In this document: piece by piece, positions 14,104 through 26,654 of the stretch
How positions within the stretch are numbered: the stretch's first letter is position 1
Layout: every line of letters begins with the position of its first letter
Assembly (NCBI GenBank): GCA_933822405.4
Contig: CAKOGP040000779.1
Span: 1-64,000, forward strand
Length of the DNA: 64,000 nucleotides
From: Cylindrotheca closterium
Lineage: Eukaryota; Bacillariophyta; Bacillariophyceae; Bacillariales; Bacillariaceae
Direction of reading: 5' to 3'
The notes under the pieces: generated by a model
Told to the model about the DNA's origin: nothing
Seen by the model: only the letters and a program-made list of their open reading frames with translations
Databases searched by the model: none
Position numbers and translations under genes: made by a program

Positions 14104-15000
14104 ATGGCAGTACGACTTTCAGAACAACAGGAAGAAAATAAGCCTGAGAGGAGCATACGACAGCTACCTCTCCTGATTCTTCTCATTATTGCCTCTATCT
14201 CGTTGCGTAAGTCATTGACGATGCCAAGAACATTTCTGGGTGATACTACACGAAAGCTAGACGCTGTAGAAGAAGAACTTCCTTTAAATGATTCGACTGT
14301 CATCATAACATCATCGTTGATCCCGACACATCCGTCTATCAGGATGGTCAACGAGACTGTAAATTCAATACGAGAAATGATTGGTGGGTTGGCCTACAAT
14401 ACCCCTATATTGATTTCCGTCGATGGGAAGAAGGAATACAACAACGAAGATATAGAAAGACTCCAGAAATACGTTGAAAACTTGCGAATACGATTCCTCC
14501 GTGATCCCTATGTCACTATTCTCAACAATTATCAATTTGGCCACATTTCGAATAGTATTCGAGTGGCGCTGCAGGTGGTGGAGACTGAATTCATCTACGT
14601 CGTCCAGCATGATTTCAAATTCATCAAGCCCATCAACCACACATCTCTAGTCGGTGTCATGCGAGAACACCCCAACCAAATCAAAATTGTAAGGTTCGGT
14701 AAACGTAAACATCGAGAAGACGTTCTTGACGTTTGTGATGAATATAATGAGTTGGATTCCGTGAAACATGGCCTGTATCTTGCACTTGCACATTGGTCGG
14801 ACAACAACCACTTTACTACCAAGAAGTACTACGCAAAGGTGTTAGATAATATTGGTCCTACTCCCAGACCAGTAGAGCATCCCATGATGAACAATCTTAT
14901 CCTGAATGCATCCGATTGTACGTACGTGCGGCAGTATCTTTACAACTGGAAGCACGGTCCGTTCATTGAGCATCTCGATGGCAGACTCACGCTTCAGTGA
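14104..15000 (+). CDS. Glycosyltransferase-like type II membrane protein, copy 1
   Basis: 298 aa, single exon. A short basic N-terminus (MAVRLSEQQEENKPERSIRQ) is followed by one hydrophobic anchor (LPLLILLIIASIS, about residues 21-33), then a lumenal domain. STVIITSSLIPTHPSI, ILISVDGKKEY and FIYVVQHDFKFI resemble a family-2-like glycosyltransferase fold with a DxD-type acidic site, though here it reads HDF. Potential N-glycosylation sites are NDS, NET, NHT and NAS. A Golgi location is inference. It is tandemly duplicated with the gene at 15291, which shares about 80% of residues by eye. Sugar donor and acceptor unknown. Confidence 0.75.
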   Translation: MAVRLSEQQEENKPERSIRQLPLLILLIIASISLRKSLTMPRTFLGDTTRKLDAVEEELPLNDSTVIITSSLIPTHPSIRMVNETVNSIREMIGGLAYNTPILISVDGKKEYNNEDIERLQKYVENLRIRFLRDPYVTILNNYQFGHISNSIRVALQVVETEFIYVVQHDFKFIKPINHTSLVGVMREHPNQIKIVRFGKRKHREDVLDVCDEYNELDSVKHGLYLALAHWSDNNHFTTKKYYAKVLDNIGPTPRPVEHPMMNNLILNASDCTYVRQYLYNWKHGPFIEHLDGRLTLQ

Positions 15001-15290
15001 AAGCTGCAATAGCCAATTCCATAACAGCTTTGAGGTACACGTACTCCATTCCTATACTTACAATCGGGATTGAACTTGCTGGTGATGATTTATGATGGAG
15101 AAATTTGACCGTTGGAAAAAGCAGATCATTTGTTTTTAAAAAATATATATTATAGAATAGAGTAGTAAAATGCAGTTTAGCGACAATATTGTGGGGCTGT
15201 GACACAAAGCGGACATTCACGAGTAGCCACATTTCATCGCTCATTATCGGATCCATCATCTTCCTATTCAACAACCTTTTTCATCCCCAA

Positions 15291-16202
15291 ATGGCAGTAC
15301 GACTTTCAAAACAGCAAGAAGAAAATAAGCCTGAGAGGAGCATACGACAGCTGCCTCTCCTGATTCTTCTCATTATTGCCGTTGTCTTTTTGTATGAGTC
15401 GTCATTTATGATGTCTTCTAGGGCATTTCTGGAGGGTGAGAAACGAAAACCGGAATCTGTCGCAGAGCAAATCCCATTAACTGATTCGACTGTCATCATA
15501 ACATCATCGTTGATCCCGACACATCCGTCTATCAGGATGGTCAACGAGACTGTAAATTCAATACGAGAAATGATTGGTGGGTTGGCCTACAATACCCCTA
15601 TATTGATTTCCGTCGATGGGAGGAAGGAATACAACAAAGAAGATATAGAAAGACTCCAGAAATACGTTGAAAACTTGCGAATGCGATTCCTCCATGATCC
15701 ATATGTCACTATTCTCAACAATTATCAATTTGGCCACATTTCGAATAGTATTCGAGTAGCACTGCAGATGGTGGAAACTGAATTTGTGTATGTTGTCCAG
15801 CATGATTTCAAATTCATCAAGCCCATCAACCACACATCTCTAGTCGGTGTCATGCGAGAGCACCCCGACCAAATCAAAATGGTTAGGTTCGGCAAAAACA
15901 GATTTCGAGGTGATGTCCTTGACGTTTGTGATGAATACAATAAGTTGGATTCCGTGAAGTATGGCATATATCTTGTTCTTGCCCAGTGGTCAGACAATAA
16001 CCACTTCACCACCAAGAAACACTACGATAGGATCTTGAAAGATATCGGTCCTACTCCCAGACCAGTAGAAGCACCCATGATGGGTCATCTTGTCCTAAAT
16101 GCAACTTCTGATTGCACATATTTGCTACAGTATACATACAACTGGATGCAGGGCCCATTCATTGGACATCTTGATGGCAGACTCACTCTTCAACGAAAGT
16201 AA
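15291..16202 (+). CDS. Glycosyltransferase-like type II membrane protein, copy 2
   Basis: 303 aa, single exon, ATG in CCCCAAATGGCAGTACG, the equivalent of CCTCAAATGGCAGTACG in copy 1. The anchor is LPLLILLIIAVVFLYES, about residues 21-37. The catalytic-like domain is conserved with copy 1 (STVIITSSLIPTHPSI, VVQHDFKFIKPINHTS), while the stem between anchor and domain (about residues 37-63) and the C-terminal third differ most. This pattern fits a retained duplicate with divergence in stem and acceptor-binding regions. Upstream sequence is also shared (AGAAATTTGACCGTTG), so the promoter was duplicated. Confidence 0.75.
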   Translation: MAVRLSKQQEENKPERSIRQLPLLILLIIAVVFLYESSFMMSSRAFLEGEKRKPESVAEQIPLTDSTVIITSSLIPTHPSIRMVNETVNSIREMIGGLAYNTPILISVDGRKEYNKEDIERLQKYVENLRMRFLHDPYVTILNNYQFGHISNSIRVALQMVETEFVYVVQHDFKFIKPINHTSLVGVMREHPDQIKMVRFGKNRFRGDVLDVCDEYNKLDSVKYGIYLVLAQWSDNNHFTTKKHYDRILKDIGPTPRPVEAPMMGHLVLNATSDCTYLLQYTYNWMQGPFIGHLDGRLTLQRK

Positions 16203-16240: not shown

Positions 16241-18157
16241 TTATACTTCATTCATGACATAATCAACGATTCGTCGTCGTCGCCTCCCCCGTCCTCCTCT
16301 CGCTCTGCTGCTTCCGAGTCGACTACTTCTCTGCATTGCCAACTTGGATGGACTCTTGGCAATATGTGGCAAGACATTAGCAATGACGACTTCTGCTCCA
16401 GAACTAACAAGGCATTGCTGTCTCAATTCCAAGTCTTGGTTGACCTCATGTACCTTTGGCGGCTTTGGTTGCTGATAATTCATCAATTCCTTGTTCCACA
16501 TGGCCAATTCGAGCAAAGCAGCCATTTCACGCAGCTCAAAGTGTCTCAACTGCGCCAAGACGCTTTTCACATAGAATCGTTTCTCTGCAAACGACAGGTA
16601 TAGGGACGTAAGGTCGGTGTTATTGATCTTGGCCATGACTTCGTCCTTCCAAGCCTCCAGTCCTAGAATAGCCAGACGGCCGGCAGTCCCTTTGTTCAAT
16701 AAAAAGACAATCTTGTCCATGGAAAGATCCTTCAACCAATGCGGGGAGGCTATCAGTCGTTCGACTAAAGGGTCCCATAAAATGGCCTCGTTGGAAAAGT
16801 TTCGATCCTGGTATTGGACAAGCAACTGAAGAACGGGAAAGGAAACCAATTTCCAAAACCAAAATCTGTCTTGAATGCAAAGTCGGAGATTGATGCAATT
16901 TTCGTCCTTTTTCCGCTCACTTTCGTCCTCTTCGGCGAAGACAATTTTGTGACTTTGAAAGACCATTTGAATGGATTCCACTGATGCATGGTTGACACAC
17001 ATTTTCTTGATCATGGGAACCCATTCAATCTTGTGGTCCGGAAAGATGCGCTTTTGACTGTGTAACAACAACAAGACGCTTTCCAATGGTGCATGGGTCT
17101 GGTAGGCATATAGGAGTGGATAGTCTCCCCACTTGTCCTTGGTAATTAGATCAGTCGGATTGTAATCAATAAGCAGCCGATATAGATCCAACGATTGATG
17201 GACAGAACATGCCAAAATGTGTAGGGGAGTCATTCCAAAGGCATCTTGTTGGCTGCCTATATGCGGAGCGTCAATGTTTTCCAGTCTAGGAGTAAAAGGA
17301 CTTCCAGACCATGGGAAATGGAGAAGGTTCTGGTTTTTACCACCAAAGACGCCTCCACCGCAACCATCATGACAGTGCTTGTTTGCTAGATTGTGCTGCC
17401 GTTTGCCCCGTTCCCAAGCAATGGCCTTTTTCAGCTTGCGAATCGTGGTTTCTTGCGGATAATGAGACTGATAATAACAGAGTTTGTGAATCTGCAATCC
17501 ATCAAATCGATGTTTCAATGCTTCCATTAGTTCTTCTTCCTGTGGATAGTGCTTTTTCAATTCGGCACATCCCACAAAGGCTGTGACTGGGACTTCCATG
17601 TCCATCGATTGAGGAAGGGCAATGTTCCGAAGAGAATGACACAAATTAAAAGCAGCATCCTGAATGGCCACAGAAGAATCGTCGTGAAAGCACAATCCAA
17701 GTTTCCACAGAAAGCGGCTCCAGTCGCCAGCTAGATTGTCGGTCGTGCTATGATTCGATGCTTCGATTCGTTCGGGAAGTTCAATCGAACGGAGTTCCCA
17801 GCAGTTTGCAAAGGCGCTCCCTCCAATGGAATGGACCGTTGGAGGAATTCTCAACTTGCGCAACGACCAGCAGTTGTAAAAGGCCTTGTCCTCGATGGAT
17901 TCCAAAGTCTCTGGGAAATCCAATATCCGCAACGATTGGTTGGATGCGGCAATTCGTTTCCCAGTAGAAATTTCATATCTCGTCGTCATATGGGCGTTCG
18001 TTCTTGCATATGTGCTGTTGTTGGAAGGCCCATGAAAGGAGCGCTGAGCCATCAAAAGGTCTTCGTCCACAGTGGGTTCCTGGTCAGAGCTCTCCTCAAT
18101 CAGAACGTTGTTGTCGTTGTTATCGTTGTTGTTGGGTCGACGACGTGTGGATGCCAT
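16241..18157 (-). CDS. BspA-type LRR plus ankyrin-like repeat protein (638 aa)
   Basis: Single exon. After a low-complexity Asn/Asp N-terminus (residues 8-17), residues 75-200 hold BspA/LRR_5-type repeats: LRILDFPETLESIEDKAFYN, LRKLRIPPTVHSIGGSAF, LRNIALP, plus AFVGCAELKK. Residues 305-370 hold ankyrin-like helices (DAFGMTPLHILACS, DKWGDYPLLYAYQ). The rest is helical, ending in a very basic RGGRGRRRRR tail. No signal peptide. Proteins of this build are numerous in diatoms as I recall, mostly without known function. A homolog of the same architecture is at 24711-26654 on the other side of the SET gene, in opposite orientation. Confidence 0.8.
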   Translation of the reverse strand: MASTRRRPNNNDNNDNNVLIEESSDQEPTVDEDLLMAQRSFHGPSNNSTYARTNAHMTTRYEISTGKRIAASNQSLRILDFPETLESIEDKAFYNCWSLRKLRIPPTVHSIGGSAFANCWELRSIELPERIEASNHSTTDNLAGDWSRFLWKLGLCFHDDSSVAIQDAAFNLCHSLRNIALPQSMDMEVPVTAFVGCAELKKHYPQEEELMEALKHRFDGLQIHKLCYYQSHYPQETTIRKLKKAIAWERGKRQHNLANKHCHDGCGGGVFGGKNQNLLHFPWSGSPFTPRLENIDAPHIGSQQDAFGMTPLHILACSVHQSLDLYRLLIDYNPTDLITKDKWGDYPLLYAYQTHAPLESVLLLLHSQKRIFPDHKIEWVPMIKKMCVNHASVESIQMVFQSHKIVFAEEDESERKKDENCINLRLCIQDRFWFWKLVSFPVLQLLVQYQDRNFSNEAILWDPLVERLIASPHWLKDLSMDKIVFLLNKGTAGRLAILGLEAWKDEVMAKINNTDLTSLYLSFAEKRFYVKSVLAQLRHFELREMAALLELAMWNKELMNYQQPKPPKVHEVNQDLELRQQCLVSSGAEVVIANVLPHIAKSPSKLAMQRSSRLGSSRARGGRGRRRRRIVDYVMNEV

Positions 18158-18889: not shown

Positions 18890-21800
18890 ATGAGTTCACC
18901 TCCCTCGTTTGAGCCTGAAACCCAACCGCAACATGAATTGACCCAACTTGAAATGGACGACAACTTTACCATCATTGACTCCGTCGTTTGGGGAGGACCG
19001 GATACTACAGAGTATGATGAACTCGCGGCAAAACCCAAACCCGATCGTTCTGGGGATCCCTGTTATTGTAGACCTACAGGCAACGGAGAACGAACTTGTG
19101 TGGATTTGAGTTGCATCCTGCATGCGTGTTTGGAGGAATGCCGATCCAATTGTCCGGCGGGTGATTCCTGTGGCAATAAGAGGATTCAAAAGCGCGAATG
19201 GAAGGACTTTGAAGTTATTGATGCTGGGAAGAAAGGTAGGGGCTTACGATTGCTAGAAGATGCTAAGAAGGGAGACTTGATAACAGAATACTGCGGTCGT
19301 GCTGTCAACAAAAAATACTTGCCTCGCTTATTCCAACGCTATGGGAACGAACGGAAATTGTACATTATGGCCCTCGACAAAGATATTTACTTGGATGCTA
19401 GAAGTCATGGAAGTTTAGCCCGCTACATTAACCACGCTTGCGAACCAAATTGTCAGGTGGAACGGTGGAAGGTCCGCGGGGTGGTCCGAGCCGCTGTCAT
19501 TGCCAAATGTGACATTCCAGCTGGAACAGAGCTCTCCTTTGATTATCAGTGGGAACGAAAGCGAGGGCGAGCTCCAACCAAATGTCACTGTGGTACACCG
19601 ACCTGTCGGGGAACTCTGGAGGTCACCAAGTCCATGGACGAGCTGGCGTTGGAAAAGAAACTCAACGCACATTGGAAGAAACCATTTATGATGCGACCGC
19701 AAAACGAGATTGTCAATCGATGCGTCAAGATTTTTTCCAAGGAATCTCAAATCTATTTTATTGGGGATGTCACGTCGTACGATCCAGATACGGGGAAGCA
19801 CTTGATCATGTATCGACACGATTTTGAAGAAGTCTGGGAAGAGCTCAAGAACGAAGACTGGATGATTCTCGACGAAGAAGCTCAACAATTTATCATTCGC
19901 AAGAAGGTGACTCCTTTCAAGATTAGTGATGAATCTTCGTCTCTCTTGAACAATAACATGCTACCTGGAATGCTCCTACAGGGCCGGGGACAAATTGCAA
20001 AGAACTATCTTTATGTTCCGACTCAGGTCAAGACGACCATGCAATCCAAACACTTGATCGAACGATGTCAGCGAACTTGCCGTGTTACCATCACTCTACA
20101 AGAGTTTACGATCAATTCTGTAATCAACAAGACAGAACCTGAAGACACAGAACACAATGAGAAGCTGACAGCAATCTCCAAAAGTAAGGATGGGGTTGCC
20201 TGGAAGTTAACCATTTTGGGCGACGACATTTCCAAAGCACATGCTATTTTAGAAAAGAACGTGGCCTTTACGGAACGGGTCCTTGCCACAGAAGCAGCAA
20301 GTGGAGTTGCCAACGGGGTCAGTCCCAGTCCAATGATGCCCACTCCAAATCGATCTCCTTTGCCCAATGGTCCAGCCGGTTTGGCAATTACGCCCAGCCA
20401 ACTCGTGACACAAAATAGTACCGAAGTCATCTTACCAAGAACAATTGTGGATCAAGCAAAGCAATTGTTGCCAGTTGTGAGAGACTTGTGTCGGAGCGTC
20501 AACTTTTCGTTTGCACCATCGGAATCGAAAAGTAAACAATTTGCAAAGATTTTGGTGGATGGAAGCCTCCAGTCGGATGTGGAAGCCGCCAAGGGGCATC
20601 TTTGGCATTTGTTGGAACAGGCCTGTCAAGAAAATAATGCTCCCAAGACTCCTTCCGGTCTATACAAAGACTTGTGCATTTTGGGAGGTGAGATGAGCAG
20701 TCGTGACTTTCACAATCTTTTGGAATATGGCAAGACAGATACAGGAAACCAATTTCTATCGAAACAAGAGAGACAACAGCGCCAGCAACAGGAAATGATC
20801 AGACGTCTAGATGCCAAGGAAGACCTTACCAAATGGTCTCCTTTCTTCGCTTCATTCGAGATTTGTCAAAGATGTACGATATGGGTCCAGTCTGATTCGG
20901 ACAAGGGCCGTATTGATAGCGCCAATCGACGAGTGAGTGAAGCCACTCCAGATGCACCCCGAAAGATATACTTTGGATGTAATCCGAGAGAAATACCCAA
21001 ATTGTGGGATCTTGTCAAGTTGCGGTCCCAAGAAGTTGGACGGGGCGTCAAATATTTGTACCTAGGATCGGATCGTTTGTATCAACCAATGATGATGAAG
21101 AACAGTGGCCGATTCTTCGAATTTGTGCAAAAAGCGACTGGAGCCAATGTCACAGTAGATGGGATGACTGGAGATCACTTGCGGATTGACGGTCGCACTA
21201 AGGATGAGTCGAGTAACCCAATTGACGAAAACGGAAAATCAAGATCAGAGGAAGAACAAGCAGAATTGGCCGAAGAATTGGTACGATTACAAGTCGAAAT
21301 ATTTCGCGACAATGCCATTCGCAAGCAGAATTGGATTTTTGGAAGGGATTGGACACTGGCGGCGAAGAAAGCACGAGGCAATTCTTCTCCTGACGGTTCA
21401 CTTGCATCCGGAATCAGTGCCTCTTCGTCGAAATCAGTCTCTTTTGATTCGAAAACACTCATGCAAGCCTGCGTCGAAATTGAAGAAATCGTTACAAATC
21501 TCAATTTCCGAGGCACGGTGGGGGCTCATGCAGCAGTGATTCTGTATCGGTATGCTGCCGTTTTGCAGGATACCCAACTAAAGATTCGTGAAATATTGCT
21601 AGCGGCTATTTTCATTGCAAACAAGGCACAAAAGAACAAGAAATGGAAACCCTTGGAGCATATCTTGAGGGCAGCTTACAAGAGCTTCTATCCTGGAGTG
21701 CATTTTGATTCGAAGATGGCCGAAGTAGTTGTTTGGGAAGAAAAGGTCCTTGCAGCCGAATCCGAGATATTGCTATCTCTTCAATACGATGTCTTTTGGA

Positions 21801-24274
21801 AAGGTTTTGATTGGATTGAAGCAGCAGCAAATCAGTCTGGGGGAATGGATAAAAAGTCAGCCAGAAATGCTCTGATATTGTCGGTCAGTGGACCTTTCAT
21901 GTCAGCCGGGCCTGAAGTTTGGCTCGAGTATGGTCCTGATCATATATTCGCTGCAGCAGCTGGTTTCATGGGGGAGAAGATAGAACCACTCTTCTCAGCG
22001 TTGTCACTGATACCCATTCGGGTTATGCGTGTGGCAGAGATTATTTCTTCATGCATCAAAGAAACTGGAAGAAAACAATCGGAATCCATTTTTGAGCGCA
22101 AAAAAGCATTTTTGAGTCGGCTGGAAGGAATCAACACAACCTGTGTGTCAGCGATGATTTCATTCAATACTGACAATCCAAGTGGACAGCTTTCCGAGCG
22201 GGAACAGAGATATCGCATCATTGGAGATCGATGTCGAAAGCGACGTGTCTACTCTCAGATTGCCAAGGTAACGATAAAGGAATTGATACTTCCATACCTA
22301 GATGGTATCAGTGCGGAAAGTAATTGCAACATTTACATCGAGCAAGGCTCTCAGGAAGGTTTCTATGATGTCGCGATGGAAGGCTCATGGAGAGCCATTT
22401 CGATTGCATCCTTCTTATTGGATGAGTCGGTAAGAAGAATGGGACAATTGCCGTCGCCATTGGATAGTACAACCAATGTGAAATCTACAAGCATCATTCA
22501 AGCAAAGGGGGATGCTGGTTTGGTTCAAATGGATTCCATTGAAACTGTTGATGCTTGGATGGGGACTATACAAGCAGATATTGAAAAGAAGGCACCCTGG
22601 GGACGCAAGACGGGGGGAAAGTGCTGTGTTCCAGGCAAAATCAAGGAGTCAGATTTGAGGCAAGCTGGATTGAGATGGTGGCTTCCGCCAAGATATGGCC
22701 CAACCACCTCTGGGTCCATTTGCGAAATGTTCCTCATCAACAACGGTGACTCCGAAGCAATCGAAGCCCTTGGGGACCTGACGCAGGCATTCCAAGGCGA
22801 ATCCGAGGCATTCTCCCGCCTGAATTCTGCTGCATCCCAGCAATTGAATGGCAACAGTGATCGATTTGTAGCACTTTCAATGCAACGATGGCCCTCCGAG
22901 AAAGTGGCCAATTACGAACAGAAATTGGTAGATGGCTCCAAGAAGGATCCAACGAAGGCTTCCACGAAGGATTCCAAGAAGAGGAGGAAAGATAGGGAGA
23001 AAGACACCGCTCCAGTTAAATTGGGCTTTTCCCCAGCTGCTTTGCAAGAGATGCAACTACTTCACAAAATTCATGGGCTCATCAAGTCTCCTTACGGTCA
23101 TCCGAACTTTGTGCTTCCTGTTGGTGTTGCCATGCCATCCGAAGTCGAAAAAGAAGACGTTGATTCGCCAGTGAGCGGATCAAAAATCTTGGATCAAAAG
23201 CGTATCAATGATGACATTGAAGACATTTTCTCGCTCACAAGAACAAGCTTGGAGAACGAGGCCGCGGCTCAAAGTGAACGCAAACGAATTGAAAAGATAT
23301 CGGGTCCACATCTCGTTTTCCATGCAACGCCCTTTGTCATGCAACGTTTCTGCAGCAAAAAGAGCAAGAAAGAACCAGTCAGTCCAAGCATCCTTGCAGC
23401 ATGGTTTAATGACTTGCTATCCGCGATGCTGCACTGTCACTCCAATGATATAGTCCTGAGAAACTTTCAAGGGGATCAAATTGTCGTAGACCACAGTGGA
23501 GTCGCCAAGTTTGCTGGCTTTTATCGTGCCACGATTTTGAGTTCCGCAGACAGGTTGATGGATATTTACAGAATGGCAGAAGATGGGGAACTCAAACGCG
23601 AAGAAAAGAGCAAGAGCACAGAAATGCTGAGCAATCCATATGCAGCACCTGAAATACTATTGGGGGCACCCAAATTCATGAAAGAAACCGACATTTGGAC
23701 CTTGGGCTGCTTCTTTGCGCATTTGCTCCTGGGTCGTCCAGCTTTTGGTGGGAGCAGTCGAGACTCACCTCCCAGTAGAGAATCCATGCTGACAGCAATG
23801 TACAAGATGGTTGGGGTTCCTGCCGAAGATAACTTTCGAGAGGCAGCAAAATTCCCATACTACCGCAAGCCGGCAAAGAAGTATCCTCCAGATGTGAAGA
23901 AAGCTCTCAATGCCATGTTGAAAGACGAAGCTCCAAAACACATGGATGCCATTGATTTAATTGACAAGATGCTTCGATTGGACCCACGAGACCGAGTAAC
24001 AGCCGAAGAGGCCTTGCAACACAAATTTATGCAAGATTACATCGAACAGAGCAACGAAGCCGAGTTTCGTGACAAGTTTGTCAATGACTGGATCTCGTTG
24101 AAACGCAATTCCATGCGCCCCAACGATGAAATGGAAAAGGAACGTGGAATCAAACGCAAAGCAATGCTAATGGCAGCCTCCAATACCGCCGCAGAAACCA
24201 AGACGGAAGCCGACGATCTATATGATATGGACGACCTTATGGAGTCAGCGACGAAGGCAGCCAAAGTGGATTAA
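18890..24274 (+). CDS. SET-domain histone methyltransferase fused to cyclin box and CDK-like pseudokinase
   Basis: One uninterrupted 1794-codon frame. Residues 56-103 form a Cys-rich AWS domain. The SET domain spans 104-227, with KGRGL (115-119), the SAM-binding NHACEPNC (181-188) and ELSFDYQ (214-220), followed by post-SET KCHCGTPTCRG (231-241). This order matches H3K36 methyltransferases (SETD2/Set2, ASH1 groups). Residues 855-1060 look like a tandem cyclin fold of cyclin T/K/L type. Residues 1375-1720 resemble a CDK-family kinase: ALQEMQLLHKIHG (helix C), NPYAAPEILLG (APE intact), DIWTLGCFFAHLLLG, RVTAEEALQHKFM. Catalytic motifs are lost: LRNFQGDQI replaces HRDLKxxN and KFAGF replaces DFG, so it reads as a pseudokinase. 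Two or three KH-like segments (about 375-465, 512-580, 720-815) are tentative. Likely nuclear, coupled to transcription elongation (inference). Confidence 0.88.
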   Translation: MSSPPSFEPETQPQHELTQLEMDDNFTIIDSVVWGGPDTTEYDELAAKPKPDRSGDPCYCRPTGNGERTCVDLSCILHACLEECRSNCPAGDSCGNKRIQKREWKDFEVIDAGKKGRGLRLLEDAKKGDLITEYCGRAVNKKYLPRLFQRYGNERKLYIMALDKDIYLDARSHGSLARYINHACEPNCQVERWKVRGVVRAAVIAKCDIPAGTELSFDYQWERKRGRAPTKCHCGTPTCRGTLEVTKSMDELALEKKLNAHWKKPFMMRPQNEIVNRCVKIFSKESQIYFIGDVTSYDPDTGKHLIMYRHDFEEVWEELKNEDWMILDEEAQQFIIRKKVTPFKISDESSSLLNNNMLPGMLLQGRGQIAKNYLYVPTQVKTTMQSKHLIERCQRTCRVTITLQEFTINSVINKTEPEDTEHNEKLTAISKSKDGVAWKLTILGDDISKAHAILEKNVAFTERVLATEAASGVANGVSPSPMMPTPNRSPLPNGPAGLAITPSQLVTQNSTEVILPRTIVDQAKQLLPVVRDLCRSVNFSFAPSESKSKQFAKILVDGSLQSDVEAAKGHLWHLLEQACQENNAPKTPSGLYKDLCILGGEMSSRDFHNLLEYGKTDTGNQFLSKQERQQRQQQEMIRRLDAKEDLTKWSPFFASFEICQRCTIWVQSDSDKGRIDSANRRVSEATPDAPRKIYFGCNPREIPKLWDLVKLRSQEVGRGVKYLYLGSDRLYQPMMMKNSGRFFEFVQKATGANVTVDGMTGDHLRIDGRTKDESSNPIDENGKSRSEEEQAELAEELVRLQVEIFRDNAIRKQNWIFGRDWTLAAKKARGNSSPDGSLASGISASSSKSVSFDSKTLMQACVEIEEIVTNLNFRGTVGAHAAVILYRYAAVLQDTQLKIREILLAAIFIANKAQKNKKWKPLEHILRAAYKSFYPGVHFDSKMAEVVVWEEKVLAAESEILLSLQYDVFWKGFDWIEAAANQSGGMDKKSARNALILSVSGPFMSAGPEVWLEYGPDHIFAAAAGFMGEKIEPLFSALSLIPIRVMRVAEIISSCIKETGRKQSESIFERKKAFLSRLEGINTTCVSAMISFNTDNPSGQLSEREQRYRIIGDRCRKRRVYSQIAKVTIKELILPYLDGISAESNCNIYIEQGSQEGFYDVAMEGSWRAISIASFLLDESVRRMGQLPSPLDSTTNVKSTSIIQAKGDAGLVQMDSIETVDAWMGTIQADIEKKAPWGRKTGGKCCVPGKIKESDLRQAGLRWWLPPRYGPTTSGSICEMFLINNGDSEAIEALGDLTQAFQGESEAFSRLNSAASQQLNGNSDRFVALSMQRWPSEKVANYEQKLVDGSKKDPTKASTKDSKKRRKDREKDTAPVKLGFSPAALQEMQLLHKIHGLIKSPYGHPNFVLPVGVAMPSEVEKEDVDSPVSGSKILDQKRINDDIEDIFSLTRTSLENEAAAQSERKRIEKISGPHLVFHATPFVMQRFCSKKSKKEPVSPSILAAWFNDLLSAMLHCHSNDIVLRNFQGDQIVVDHSGVAKFAGFYRATILSSADRLMDIYRMAEDGELKREEKSKSTEMLSNPYAAPEILLGAPKFMKETDIWTLGCFFAHLLLGRPAFGGSSRDSPPSRESMLTAMYKMVGVPAEDNFREAAKFPYYRKPAKKYPPDVKKALNAMLKDEAPKHMDAIDLIDKMLRLDPRDRVTAEEALQHKFMQDYIEQSNEAEFRDKFVNDWISLKRNSMRPNDEMEKERGIKRKAMLMAASNTAAETKTEADDLYDMDDLMESATKAAKVD

Positions 24275-24710
24275 GGAGCTACAGTATAGTGCTGTAGGGT
24301 TCGATGAAAGGTTGAACACGTAATGGAATCCTCAGCTATCTTGTTGCAAGAAAAATATTGACTCCAACATATATACCGGTAAACTAATGAAGCCTTTTCA
24401 ATCTTGTGATACTCCAGGGGCTTCAAGTCTGTTTCTGCATTCTTCGCTCTTCCCGTAACACAGCGTATGCACAATGACCCGCTTGGAAGTATCATTATAT
24501 ATTATAATATCAATACGCCGCGATGCATTTTCTCTGTGCGACCCGGTCATTTTCGGCTGTTTTCAACCGTCAAATTGAAAATCCGAGAGCGTTTGTCTCG
24601 CGTGTTCTTTGCGCTTTTCCAGTTACGGTACAATCAATGGTTCAACTCCCAGAGCGCATGTTGCAAACAAACCAGAACCTTGCAAGCATCTTCTAGTCCA
24701 TGACATCGCC
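24275..24710. other. Intergenic region downstream of SET-cyclin gene
   Basis: 436 bp containing the 3' end of the SET gene and the promoter of the BspA-type gene. A TACCGGTA palindrome lies at 24374-24381. The frame of the next gene is open back to 24609 but has no ATG there. Confidence 0.4.
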
Positions 24711-26654
24711 ATGACTGGTCCAATGAACAAAATGAATGAAAACGCTGCTACCTATTATGCTATCAAAAGCTGTTCACGATTACATGCGCCTGTCCTGTTT
24801 TTTAGTTGGGACGATGCTTCCCAGTTTCTTCACAGCTCCACGCTGTCTTCCACAGAATACGCCGAGTTCGATGATATGTATCATGCTCTGGAATACATGA
24901 GCAGCAGCGACAGCTCTAATGAATCTCCTATTGCTCAAGAAGCGATACCAGCTGTTTCCACAAGCTGTGTCGCCCGAGCTGCTCATTGTTATAATAATAC
25001 TTTCCAGAGACCAGCTGAAGTGTGGAAAGCCACTACGAAACGATCACTCCCAGAGAGTGAACGACGCATCAAACGACGTAAACGGAATCGTATAAAAGAT
25101 GATCTATGCGCCACCACAAAGGCCCTGAGTGCCCTCAACTTTGACCGAAGCAATGGCAATCCCATGCTGACAAAGAATAACAGCAACAACAGCACCATGA
25201 ACAACGAGTTCTTTTTGTACACTGGACAAATACACGACGACATACCCAAAACAGTCACTTATGTTCGGACGCAAACATCGTTAGACTTTATTCCAGAAAG
25301 TACCTTTCGGGATCTAAAGCAGTTGGGGACTGTGGAAATTCAGAAACCGGTTCGAGTGATTGGACGTAGAGCCTTTTTTTCGTGTCGATCGCTTACAGAA
25401 GTATCCTTACCTTCCACTGTCAAGGTAATTGGTGATCATGCCTTTCGATCATGTTTTCCATCCGGCTCTTTAGCGCTTCCAGAAGGATTGGAAACGATTG
25501 GAAAGTGGGCCTTTCGACAGTGCGAGTTTAGGTCCATGAGAATCCCGGATTCGATTGAAGAAGTTACCGAAGCCTCCTTTTCCAACTGTTCCAAGTTGCT
25601 GTCCTGTGAAATATCCGAAAAAATGATTCGAATTCGAGATGGGGCCTTTTCGTATTGCCAACGATTAAGGAATATTGCTATTGGCAAGAACACCAGAACC
25701 TGCAAACGTGGTGTATTTGGTGGTTGCCAGGATTTGCTTGACCTCTTCCACTCGGAGGATGCCTTGGTGGATGCCTTGAAGCACCGTTTCGATGCACTGC
25801 CCTTGCACAAAACATGCTATTACCAGAGTTTCTCGGAAAATGTGGAGATTGTTCAAATGTTGGATATGAATTCGGACGATGGATCGAAACAGGATTGCCT
25901 TGGAATGACTCCTCTGCACATTCTAGCCCTCTCCTCCAGACAGGATATTCAAATGTACCAAAATGTGATCGAATGCTCCCCCAGTGATCTTGTGACCCTT
26001 GATAGATGGGGCGAAATTCCATTGAATTATGCTTGCCACAATGATATTCCAGTTGATATTCTCCAATGCATGCTAGAAGGTCACCTGTCAATGTTTCATA
26101 CGGAACATATAATCTGGGGAAGGTTGATCGATATATTGTGCTCCATTGGAGCGTCCCGAGAAAAGTTTCAGCTGGTACTAGAATCCCAACAAAGATATTC
26201 GCCCAATGAGAGACTCGATTGGGCTAAGATCTTGGAGACAACATTGCATATGAATGCTAACCCTGAAACCACTAGGTTTCTCTTTGAATGTAGCATTCAT
26301 CGACGATTGAAACAATTGGGGCTTGAAAAGTGGAGGTCGAGTGTGATCAATGAAGTGGCACAAATTGACGACTTCTCCAATCGACAAGCATGCAATGAGG
26401 TCGTGCACGAGAAGCTAGTAGAGATGGAGCGCAGGGAAATTCTTTCGTTGGTGGAACAATCAGTCTGGAAAGATAGAATGATGGATGGTGGCGAAGACAG
26501 TATGAAGATTGGATATCAAGAGGAAGAACCATCTGCGACTCGAAGCAATCCTTATTGGCGGGAACTCTGTCGCGTCAAGTGTGGTGCAGATATAGTGGTA
26601 TCCAATGTACTTCCTTTTCTGGGGAATTACCTTCAGCAACACCCAAAGAAGTGA
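24711..26654 (+). CDS. BspA-type LRR plus ankyrin-like repeat protein (647 aa)
   Basis: Single exon. The first ATG in frame is 24711 (MTGPMNKMNENAATYY). A basic nuclear-localisation-like cluster (SERRIKRRKRNRIKD) lies near residue 118. BspA/LRR_5 repeats follow: LGTVEIQKPVRVIGRRAFFS, LTEVSLPSTVKVIGDHAF, GSLALPEGLETIGKWAF, FRSMRIPDSIEEVTEASFSN and more, about six units. Then come DALKHRFDALPLHKTCYYQS and ankyrin-like CLGMTPLHILALSSRQDI. The LKHRFD..HKTCYYQS linker is shared with the protein at 16241-18157, so the two are paralogs. Function unknown. Confidence 0.8.
   Translation: MTGPMNKMNENAATYYAIKSCSRLHAPVLFFSWDDASQFLHSSTLSSTEYAEFDDMYHALEYMSSSDSSNESPIAQEAIPAVSTSCVARAAHCYNNTFQRPAEVWKATTKRSLPESERRIKRRKRNRIKDDLCATTKALSALNFDRSNGNPMLTKNNSNNSTMNNEFFLYTGQIHDDIPKTVTYVRTQTSLDFIPESTFRDLKQLGTVEIQKPVRVIGRRAFFSCRSLTEVSLPSTVKVIGDHAFRSCFPSGSLALPEGLETIGKWAFRQCEFRSMRIPDSIEEVTEASFSNCSKLLSCEISEKMIRIRDGAFSYCQRLRNIAIGKNTRTCKRGVFGGCQDLLDLFHSEDALVDALKHRFDALPLHKTCYYQSFSENVEIVQMLDMNSDDGSKQDCLGMTPLHILALSSRQDIQMYQNVIECSPSDLVTLDRWGEIPLNYACHNDIPVDILQCMLEGHLSMFHTEHIIWGRLIDILCSIGASREKFQLVLESQQRYSPNERLDWAKILETTLHMNANPETTRFLFECSIHRRLKQLGLEKWRSSVINEVAQIDDFSNRQACNEVVHEKLVEMERREILSLVEQSVWKDRMMDGGEDSMKIGYQEEEPSATRSNPYWRELCRVKCGADIVVSNVLPFLGNYLQQHPKK

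Follow-up and report, generated by a model that had tools for sequence, protein, structure and literature searches.

A SETD2-type methyltransferase of diatoms fused to a Tudor domain, KH-like units, a cyclin and a CDK-fold pseudokinase, with a possible role in docking to the polymerase complex

Recruitment of Set2 through the phosphorylated tail of RNA polymerase II is regarded as an almost universal rule; the phosphorylation itself is written by P-TEFb or CDK12. Methyltransferase and kinase parts have been described on one chain in oomycetes: the accessible part of a 2010 study presents the Phytophthora protein PITG_14137 as an inactive CDK-like kinase with an N-terminal histone-lysine methyltransferase, with orthologs in P. 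ramorum and P. sojae and none outside Phytophthora (PMC3019232). The same passages list four probably inactive CDK-cyclin fusions from oomycetes, ciliates and Theileria. For diatoms, SETD2 homologs have been reported with an AWS-SET-PS arrangement and, in some diatoms, with additional conserved motifs IV-VII (PMC10421102), and the words kinase and cyclin occur 0 times in the accessible main text of that paper. Likewise, the available part of a 2011 review (PMC3145265) has 0 occurrences of cyclin, and its kinase passages concern receptor kinases.

The window analysed here, 64,000 nucleotides of a contig of the diatom Cylindrotheca closterium (CAKOGP040000779.1), holds a gene whose product is ordered as AWS-SET-postSET, Tudor, KH-like units, cyclin, KH-like unit and CDK-fold pseudokinase (Table 1). 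It resembles PITG_14137 in joining a SET-type enzyme to a dead CDK-like kinase, in the same order and in another stramenopile, but the cyclin, Tudor and KH parts are unmentioned in the accessible passages of PMC3019232 and the two proteins are compared by description only. The remark in the original prediction that no description of this architecture was known to its author must be corrected for the same reason: an inactive CDK-like kinase with an N-terminal methyltransferase was already on record for Phytophthora, though not for diatoms, and these passages do not mention the additional domains for it. We found no further open-licence PubMed Central paper naming PITG_14137. The four CDK-cyclin fusions listed there likewise combine a CDK lacking the catalytic Asp with a cyclin on one chain; in these, however, the cyclin is C-terminal to the kinase, SET is unmentioned in the accessible part, and T. 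pseudonana and P. tricornutum are reported to lack them (PMC3019232). Compared with Set2 and SETD2, the diatom protein shares an AWS-SET-postSET part with intact catalytic residues, SETD2 being the closest solved relative, but adds Tudor, KH-like units, cyclin and pseudokinase, and SRI and WW were not found in it. Its cyclin-kinase pair differs from P-TEFb (CDK9/cyclin T) and CDK12/cyclin K by being fused on the same chain with a methyltransferase and by the loss of the VAIK Lys, the HRD Asp and the DFG Asp. The SETD2 proteins of PMC10421102 and the SETD2 entries of PMC3145265 probably belong to the same gene family, a likeness drawn from the descriptions in their available parts. Neither the Tudor-KH-cyclin-pseudokinase set on Set2 nor its diatom-wide conservation was found among the papers matched in searches of the open-licence PubMed Central literature, where absence counts for little. 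What may be new is this diatom-conserved set, with a brief oomycete precedent.

The gene was found once in a search of the 47.6-Mb genome (572 contigs), where the next matches were other SET genes and CDKs; its closest named relatives by protein search come from Cylindrotheca fusiformis (60%), Nitzschia inconspicua (51%) and Seminavis (45%). That the fusion lies in a single uninterrupted frame, as originally predicted, is confirmed. The predicted domain list was right for SET, cyclin and pseudokinase, and missed the Tudor domain, about five KH-like units and the C-terminal DDLYDMDD motif. The exact start is weakly supported (M1 is aligned in all, and P4 in at least 90%, of a 26-member alignment). 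At the other end, the conserved DDLYDMDD motif close to the C-terminus indicates that the protein has the same end as its relatives. Within the motif, L1777 is kept in 142/142, Y1778 in 140/141 and D1775 in 135/142 aligned members; this short acidic stretch resembles a docking motif for some partner. The stretch has low model confidence despite its near-invariance. NCBIfam matches to a MADS6 kinase and to AnkI scored far below the cut-offs and were set aside. As for the neighbourhood, two related open reading frames with similar C-terminal regions lie one on each side of the gene (16241-18157 on the - strand and 24609-26654 on the + strand), and their translations, judged by eye, look like BspA-type leucine-rich-repeat proteins. 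Two adjacent and very similar frames (14104-15000 and 15189-16202, + strand) appear to have arisen in tandem by duplication; their product is a putative glycosyltransferase-like protein with a membrane anchor, again by eye.

Table 1. Features of the fusion gene, in positions of the window
Feature	Position	Strand	Remarks
Whole fusion gene	18890..24274	+	1794 aa, one uninterrupted frame, single copy
AWS-SET-postSET, SETD2-type	19055..19621	+	residues 56-244; best PDB match SETD2
Tudor domain	19694..19870	+	residues 269-327; predicted structure
KH-like unit 1	20006..20302	+	residues 373-471; AlphaFold secondary structure
KH-like unit 2	20414..20632	+	residues 509-581; secondary structure
KH-like unit 3	20675..21043	+	residues 596-718; secondary structure
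KH-like unit 4	21050..21325	+	residues 721-812; AlphaFold secondary structure
Cyclin region	21449..22063	+	residues 854-1058; helices fit two cyclin boxes; CDK-contact pair Lys912, Glu957
KH-like unit 5	22238..22432	+	residues 1117-1181 (b-a-b-b-a); AlphaFold secondary structure
CDK-fold pseudokinase	22505..24115	+	residues 1206-1742; two-lobed CDK fold, predicted structure
VAIK Lys position, Ser1330	22877..22879	+	by alignment; Ser 143/144, Thr 1/144
Alpha-C (PSTAIRE-like) helix	23033..23077	+	residues 1382-1396; Glu1387 kept, E 143/143
HRD position, LRN	23456..23464	+	residues 1523-1525; Asp in 0/143 aligned members
DFG position, AGF	23513..23521	+	residues 1542-1544; Asp in 0/143 aligned members
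Acidic C-terminal motif around DDLYDMDDL	24209..24247	+	residues 1774-1786

In the methyltransferase part, residues 54-243 matched SETD2 best in the PDB (1e-40), followed by ASH1L and then NSD; the catalytic Asn181 and His182 are present in 135/136 aligned members and Tyr219 in 135/135, and the eight N-terminal cysteines examined are invariant or nearly so. This ranking and these residues bear out the H3K36-type SET domain of the original prediction, and the protein is a diatom Set2/SETD2-type H3K36 methyltransferase, with putative activity. It cannot be called the sole H3K36-type enzyme of the genome: the AWS model matched once genome-wide, but one of seven other SET loci (L003) is an NSD-type PHD-AWS-SET gene, with SET, a PHDvar_NSD match just below the cut-off and NSD2 as its best PDB match. 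An insert in the AWS domain of this locus keeps the Pfam AWS model from matching it. PDB comparison of the two AWS-type genes thus makes the fusion gene the one closest to SETD2 and L003 the one of NSD type, in agreement with the available part of PMC3145265, which has one SETD2 and one ASH1/WHSC1 entry per species in its first two columns, taken as Phaeodactylum and Thalassiosira.

The region that follows is known mostly from predicted structure. The Tudor region is modelled as a five-stranded barrel with aromatic residues, of the RDM15/PTM type; by Pfam it is weak, with an E of 0.056 in the C. closterium protein and matches at E<=1 in 4/26 members. Four KH-like units share a piece with it and a fifth lies between cyclin and kinase. 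In a Foldseek search with the Tudor-KH piece, the eight matches after Tudor were tandem KH domains of IMP1/2/3 (E 5e-4 to 6e-3, with a large rmsd over the pair), and amidase lid domains, which are non-KH a/b folds, tie with KH for these units (VIA). Pfam KH_1 was matched in 1/26 members, and the sole PDB match of the unit 5 profile at E<=10 was an arginase (E 1.7). The GxxG loop with which KH domains grip RNA is missing from most members in four of the five units, and some GxxG is present in unit 3 in 108/144. Given the modelled fold, nucleic-acid binding by these units is possible. Their origin as mutual repeats was rejected, profile comparison of 45 region pairs having returned one weak pair (units 2 and 5; probability 7.85%, E 0.0012). 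With a pTM of 0.58 in AlphaFold, the Tudor-KH piece looks flexible.

The cyclin match is weak in the C. closterium protein alone (E 0.029), and is clear across the family, where Cyclin_N was found in 11/11 fragments and all 11 PDB matches of the cyclin profile at E<=1 were to the first box of cyclin T1. Lys912 and Glu957 are invariant (144/144) and align with K93 and E137 of cyclin T1, a pair which we take to contact the CDK αC helix. These results uphold the cyclin-like region originally placed at about 855-1060. Helices predicted by AlphaFold at 854-963 and 974-1058 are compatible with two cyclin boxes; the Cyclin_C profile had no match in the family members scanned, and the second box is a candidate. 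Foldseek was uninformative on this fold, since the best 50 matches of the 950-residue cyclin-KH-kinase model were all kinases. Among the cyclin loci of the same genome (20 loci out of 37 matches, plus L030), the profile ranked L030 first, with a whole-sequence E of 1.1e-6 summed over three weak stretches, and the next at 0.01. L030 is a separate cyclin L/K/T-like gene matching cyclins L1, L2, K and T.

The kinase region has lost the catalytic residues of an active CDK and kept other conserved residues. The VAIK Lys is found in 0/144 aligned members and the HRD and DFG Asp in 0/143 each, whereas Pro and Glu of APE and the Asp of DxWxxG are kept in 143/143 and the Arg of LDPxxR in 142/143. The claim of a pseudokinase without HRD Asp and DFG but with APE and the DIWTLGC helix is thus upheld; the kinase fold itself also stood, but the boundaries given for it (1375-1720) missed the N-lobe, and the fold extends back to about 1206. 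The PSTAIRE Arg is lost as well (Gln in 139/143 aligned members, Arg in 1), so that the contact between cyclin and kinase cannot be fully canonical. An origin from CDK9/12 was considered but is not claimed, because neither profile nor fold ranks separate the subfamilies: CDK12 tops one ranking, tied with other CDKs, and a CDK1/2-like kinase tops another. On the predicted structure we claim only a CDK fold. The piece from cyclin to kinase (845-1794) reached a pTM of 0.87 in AlphaFold, against 0.58 for the Tudor-KH piece, which suggests that cyclin and kinase may be held in a fixed arrangement.

The family comprises at least 144 members; of these 144, 131 cover the SET, Tudor, cyclin and kinase regions; coverage fell below 70% for the SET region in 11/144 and for the kinase region in 2/144. 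Ordinary SETs and kinases (P0076-P0089, P0120) and the NSD protein of C. closterium itself (P0121) were excluded. One protein search listed 120 of its 172 matches. All three protein searches scored about 8,000 candidates each, chosen for the largest number of shared words, which may leave out relatives from oomycetes or other distant groups. Named sources are Cyclotella (P0140, P0147), Thalassionema (P0064), Seminavis, Nitzschia, Cylindrotheca, Epithemia, Mayamaea and Fistulifera, and Phaeodactylum is absent among the named members listed; most other members are metagenome or assembly entries assigned to diatoms by resemblance only. A search for the same domain order in stramenopiles, as originally proposed, was thus positive among diatoms. 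Since the sources include centric (Cyclotella), araphid (Thalassionema) and raphid diatoms, the fusion dates back, under vertical descent, at least to the ancestor they share. One entry labelled as the dinoflagellate Alexandrium tamarense (P0134) resembles the Cyclotella entries at the kinase motifs; judging from this sequence likeness, it is probably diatom material, by contamination or a mislabelled source. Among the 137 longer members, the median identity to the C. closterium protein is 66% for SET, 51 and 41% for the cyclin boxes and 45 and 47% for the kinase lobes, and only 14 and 17% for two linkers. That the kinase lobes are conserved to roughly the same degree as the cyclin boxes, with αC Glu and APE kept, indicates a pseudokinase that is constrained and not decaying. 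The fusion is real, single-copy, old and constrained.

How would such a protein find its chromatin? The 15 families matched at E<=1 across 26 scanned members did not include SRI or WW, both of which a scan of the same kind detected in a fungal Set2 used as control; neither was found at E<=10 in the C. closterium protein, although a strongly diverged SRI could escape; a genome-wide SRI search, which had no positive control, returned nothing. The Rpb1 tail of the host (L043, C340, - strand) consists of 25 heptads, of which 23 read YSPTSPA, with Ala instead of Ser at position 7, and hence a CTD in which the Ser2 and Ser5 positions are present. This tail is a possible docking target of the fusion protein. 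In Phaeodactylum, H3K36me3 covers genic regions, with levels that increase past the start of active genes, according to the available part of PMC10421102.

We propose that the Tudor domain, the KH-like string and the fused cyclin T/K-like and dead CDK parts may stand in place of the classical WW and SRI modules. The cyclin would dock on the pseudokinase of its own chain, giving a rigid, ATP-independent pseudo-P-TEFb, and this unit would serve as a docking platform, bringing the SET domain into the complex of the elongating polymerase either by occupying a P-TEFb/CDK12-like site or by attaching to the tail or to partners of the tail. The KH-like units may touch nascent RNA, and the Tudor domain may contact a methylated histone tail. 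A SETD2-type enzyme with a built-in dead cyclin-CDK pair as its docking unit is the reading we favour, at a little under even confidence and from sequence and models. It is favoured by SETD2 being the best PDB match while a separate NSD gene covers the other H3K36 class, by SRI and WW not being found, by a cyclin nearest to cyclin T1, by the invariance of K912, E957 and the αC Glu, and by the high pTM of the cyclin-kinase piece. It is weakened, however, by a kinase profile that is not specific to CDK9/12, by the lost PSTAIRE Arg, by the missing Cyclin_C match and by the scarcity of GxxG. The broader proposal, that the stramenopile Set2 swapped its SRI link to the tail for a dead cyclin T/K-CDK pair, a pseudo-P-TEFb acting as an address tag to elongating RNA polymerase II, is more tentative. 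The original idea of a scaffold by which the methyltransferase would take a CDK/cyclin place in an elongation complex is compatible with the cyclin T1 likeness, the invariant CDK-binding residues and the SRI domain not being found, and stays a hypothesis.

The invariant CDK-contact pair of the cyclin could also point to an active CDK, encoded elsewhere, that the cyclin recruits and activates in trans; the SET enzyme would then carry a CTD kinase with it, and the pseudokinase would only stabilise the chain. Candidates are at hand, as the genome has other CDK-like kinases, with HRD intact in 6/6 frames examined, DFG in the same frame in 3/6, and a VAIK-like motif, HRD and DFG together in 2/6 (introns or variants may hide the rest). 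Yet the chain has a CDK fold of its own, whose alpha-C helix is conserved and which would rival such a kinase for the cyclin, the pTM suggests a fixed arrangement of the two, and L030 is an ordinary cyclin of this kind in the same genome; we consider this explanation unlikely. Pseudokinases frequently serve as allosteric partners, and with all parts on one chain in 131/144 members the cyclin-pseudokinase module might instead be an internal on/off regulator of SET, by autoinhibition or allostery, with no role in recruitment to the polymerase. The 600 residues of Tudor and KH-like units between SET and the cyclin-kinase part, apparently flexible, speak against such a regulator, to which we assign a similarly low probability.

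A dead kinase beside a cyclin closest to T1, in a genome with other CDK-like genes, might also act as a decoy that sequesters partners or substrates of P-TEFb and restrains active CDK9/12, but fusion to the writer of an activating mark favours a shared address over inhibition, and this is improbable. Finally, a fusion created by assembly or gene modelling, or a kinase that has decayed and lost its function, can hardly be right: the partial SET (11/144) and kinase (2/144) regions, one in a transcript labelled complete (P0075), are probably incomplete entries, and four regions recurring together in many assemblies and transcriptomes, kinase lobes on a par with the cyclin boxes in conservation and an invariant alpha-C Glu and APE refute it in our view, as do the full-length transcripts, upholding the earlier claim that the fusion is no gene-model artefact.

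If a docking unit is what the cyclin-pseudokinase module provides, and if PITG_14137 is an ortholog, the switch from SRI to pseudo-P-TEFb would predate the split of oomycetes and ochrophytes. An H3K36me3 map already exists for Phaeodactylum (PMC10421102, available part). Overall, a major algal group seems to join a dead kinase module to a methyltransferase in which the recognised tail-binding domain was not found. Such a fusion is of interest as a pseudokinase that is widely conserved together with its naturally fused cyclin, and as a natural experiment on the coupling of H3K36 methylation to elongation.
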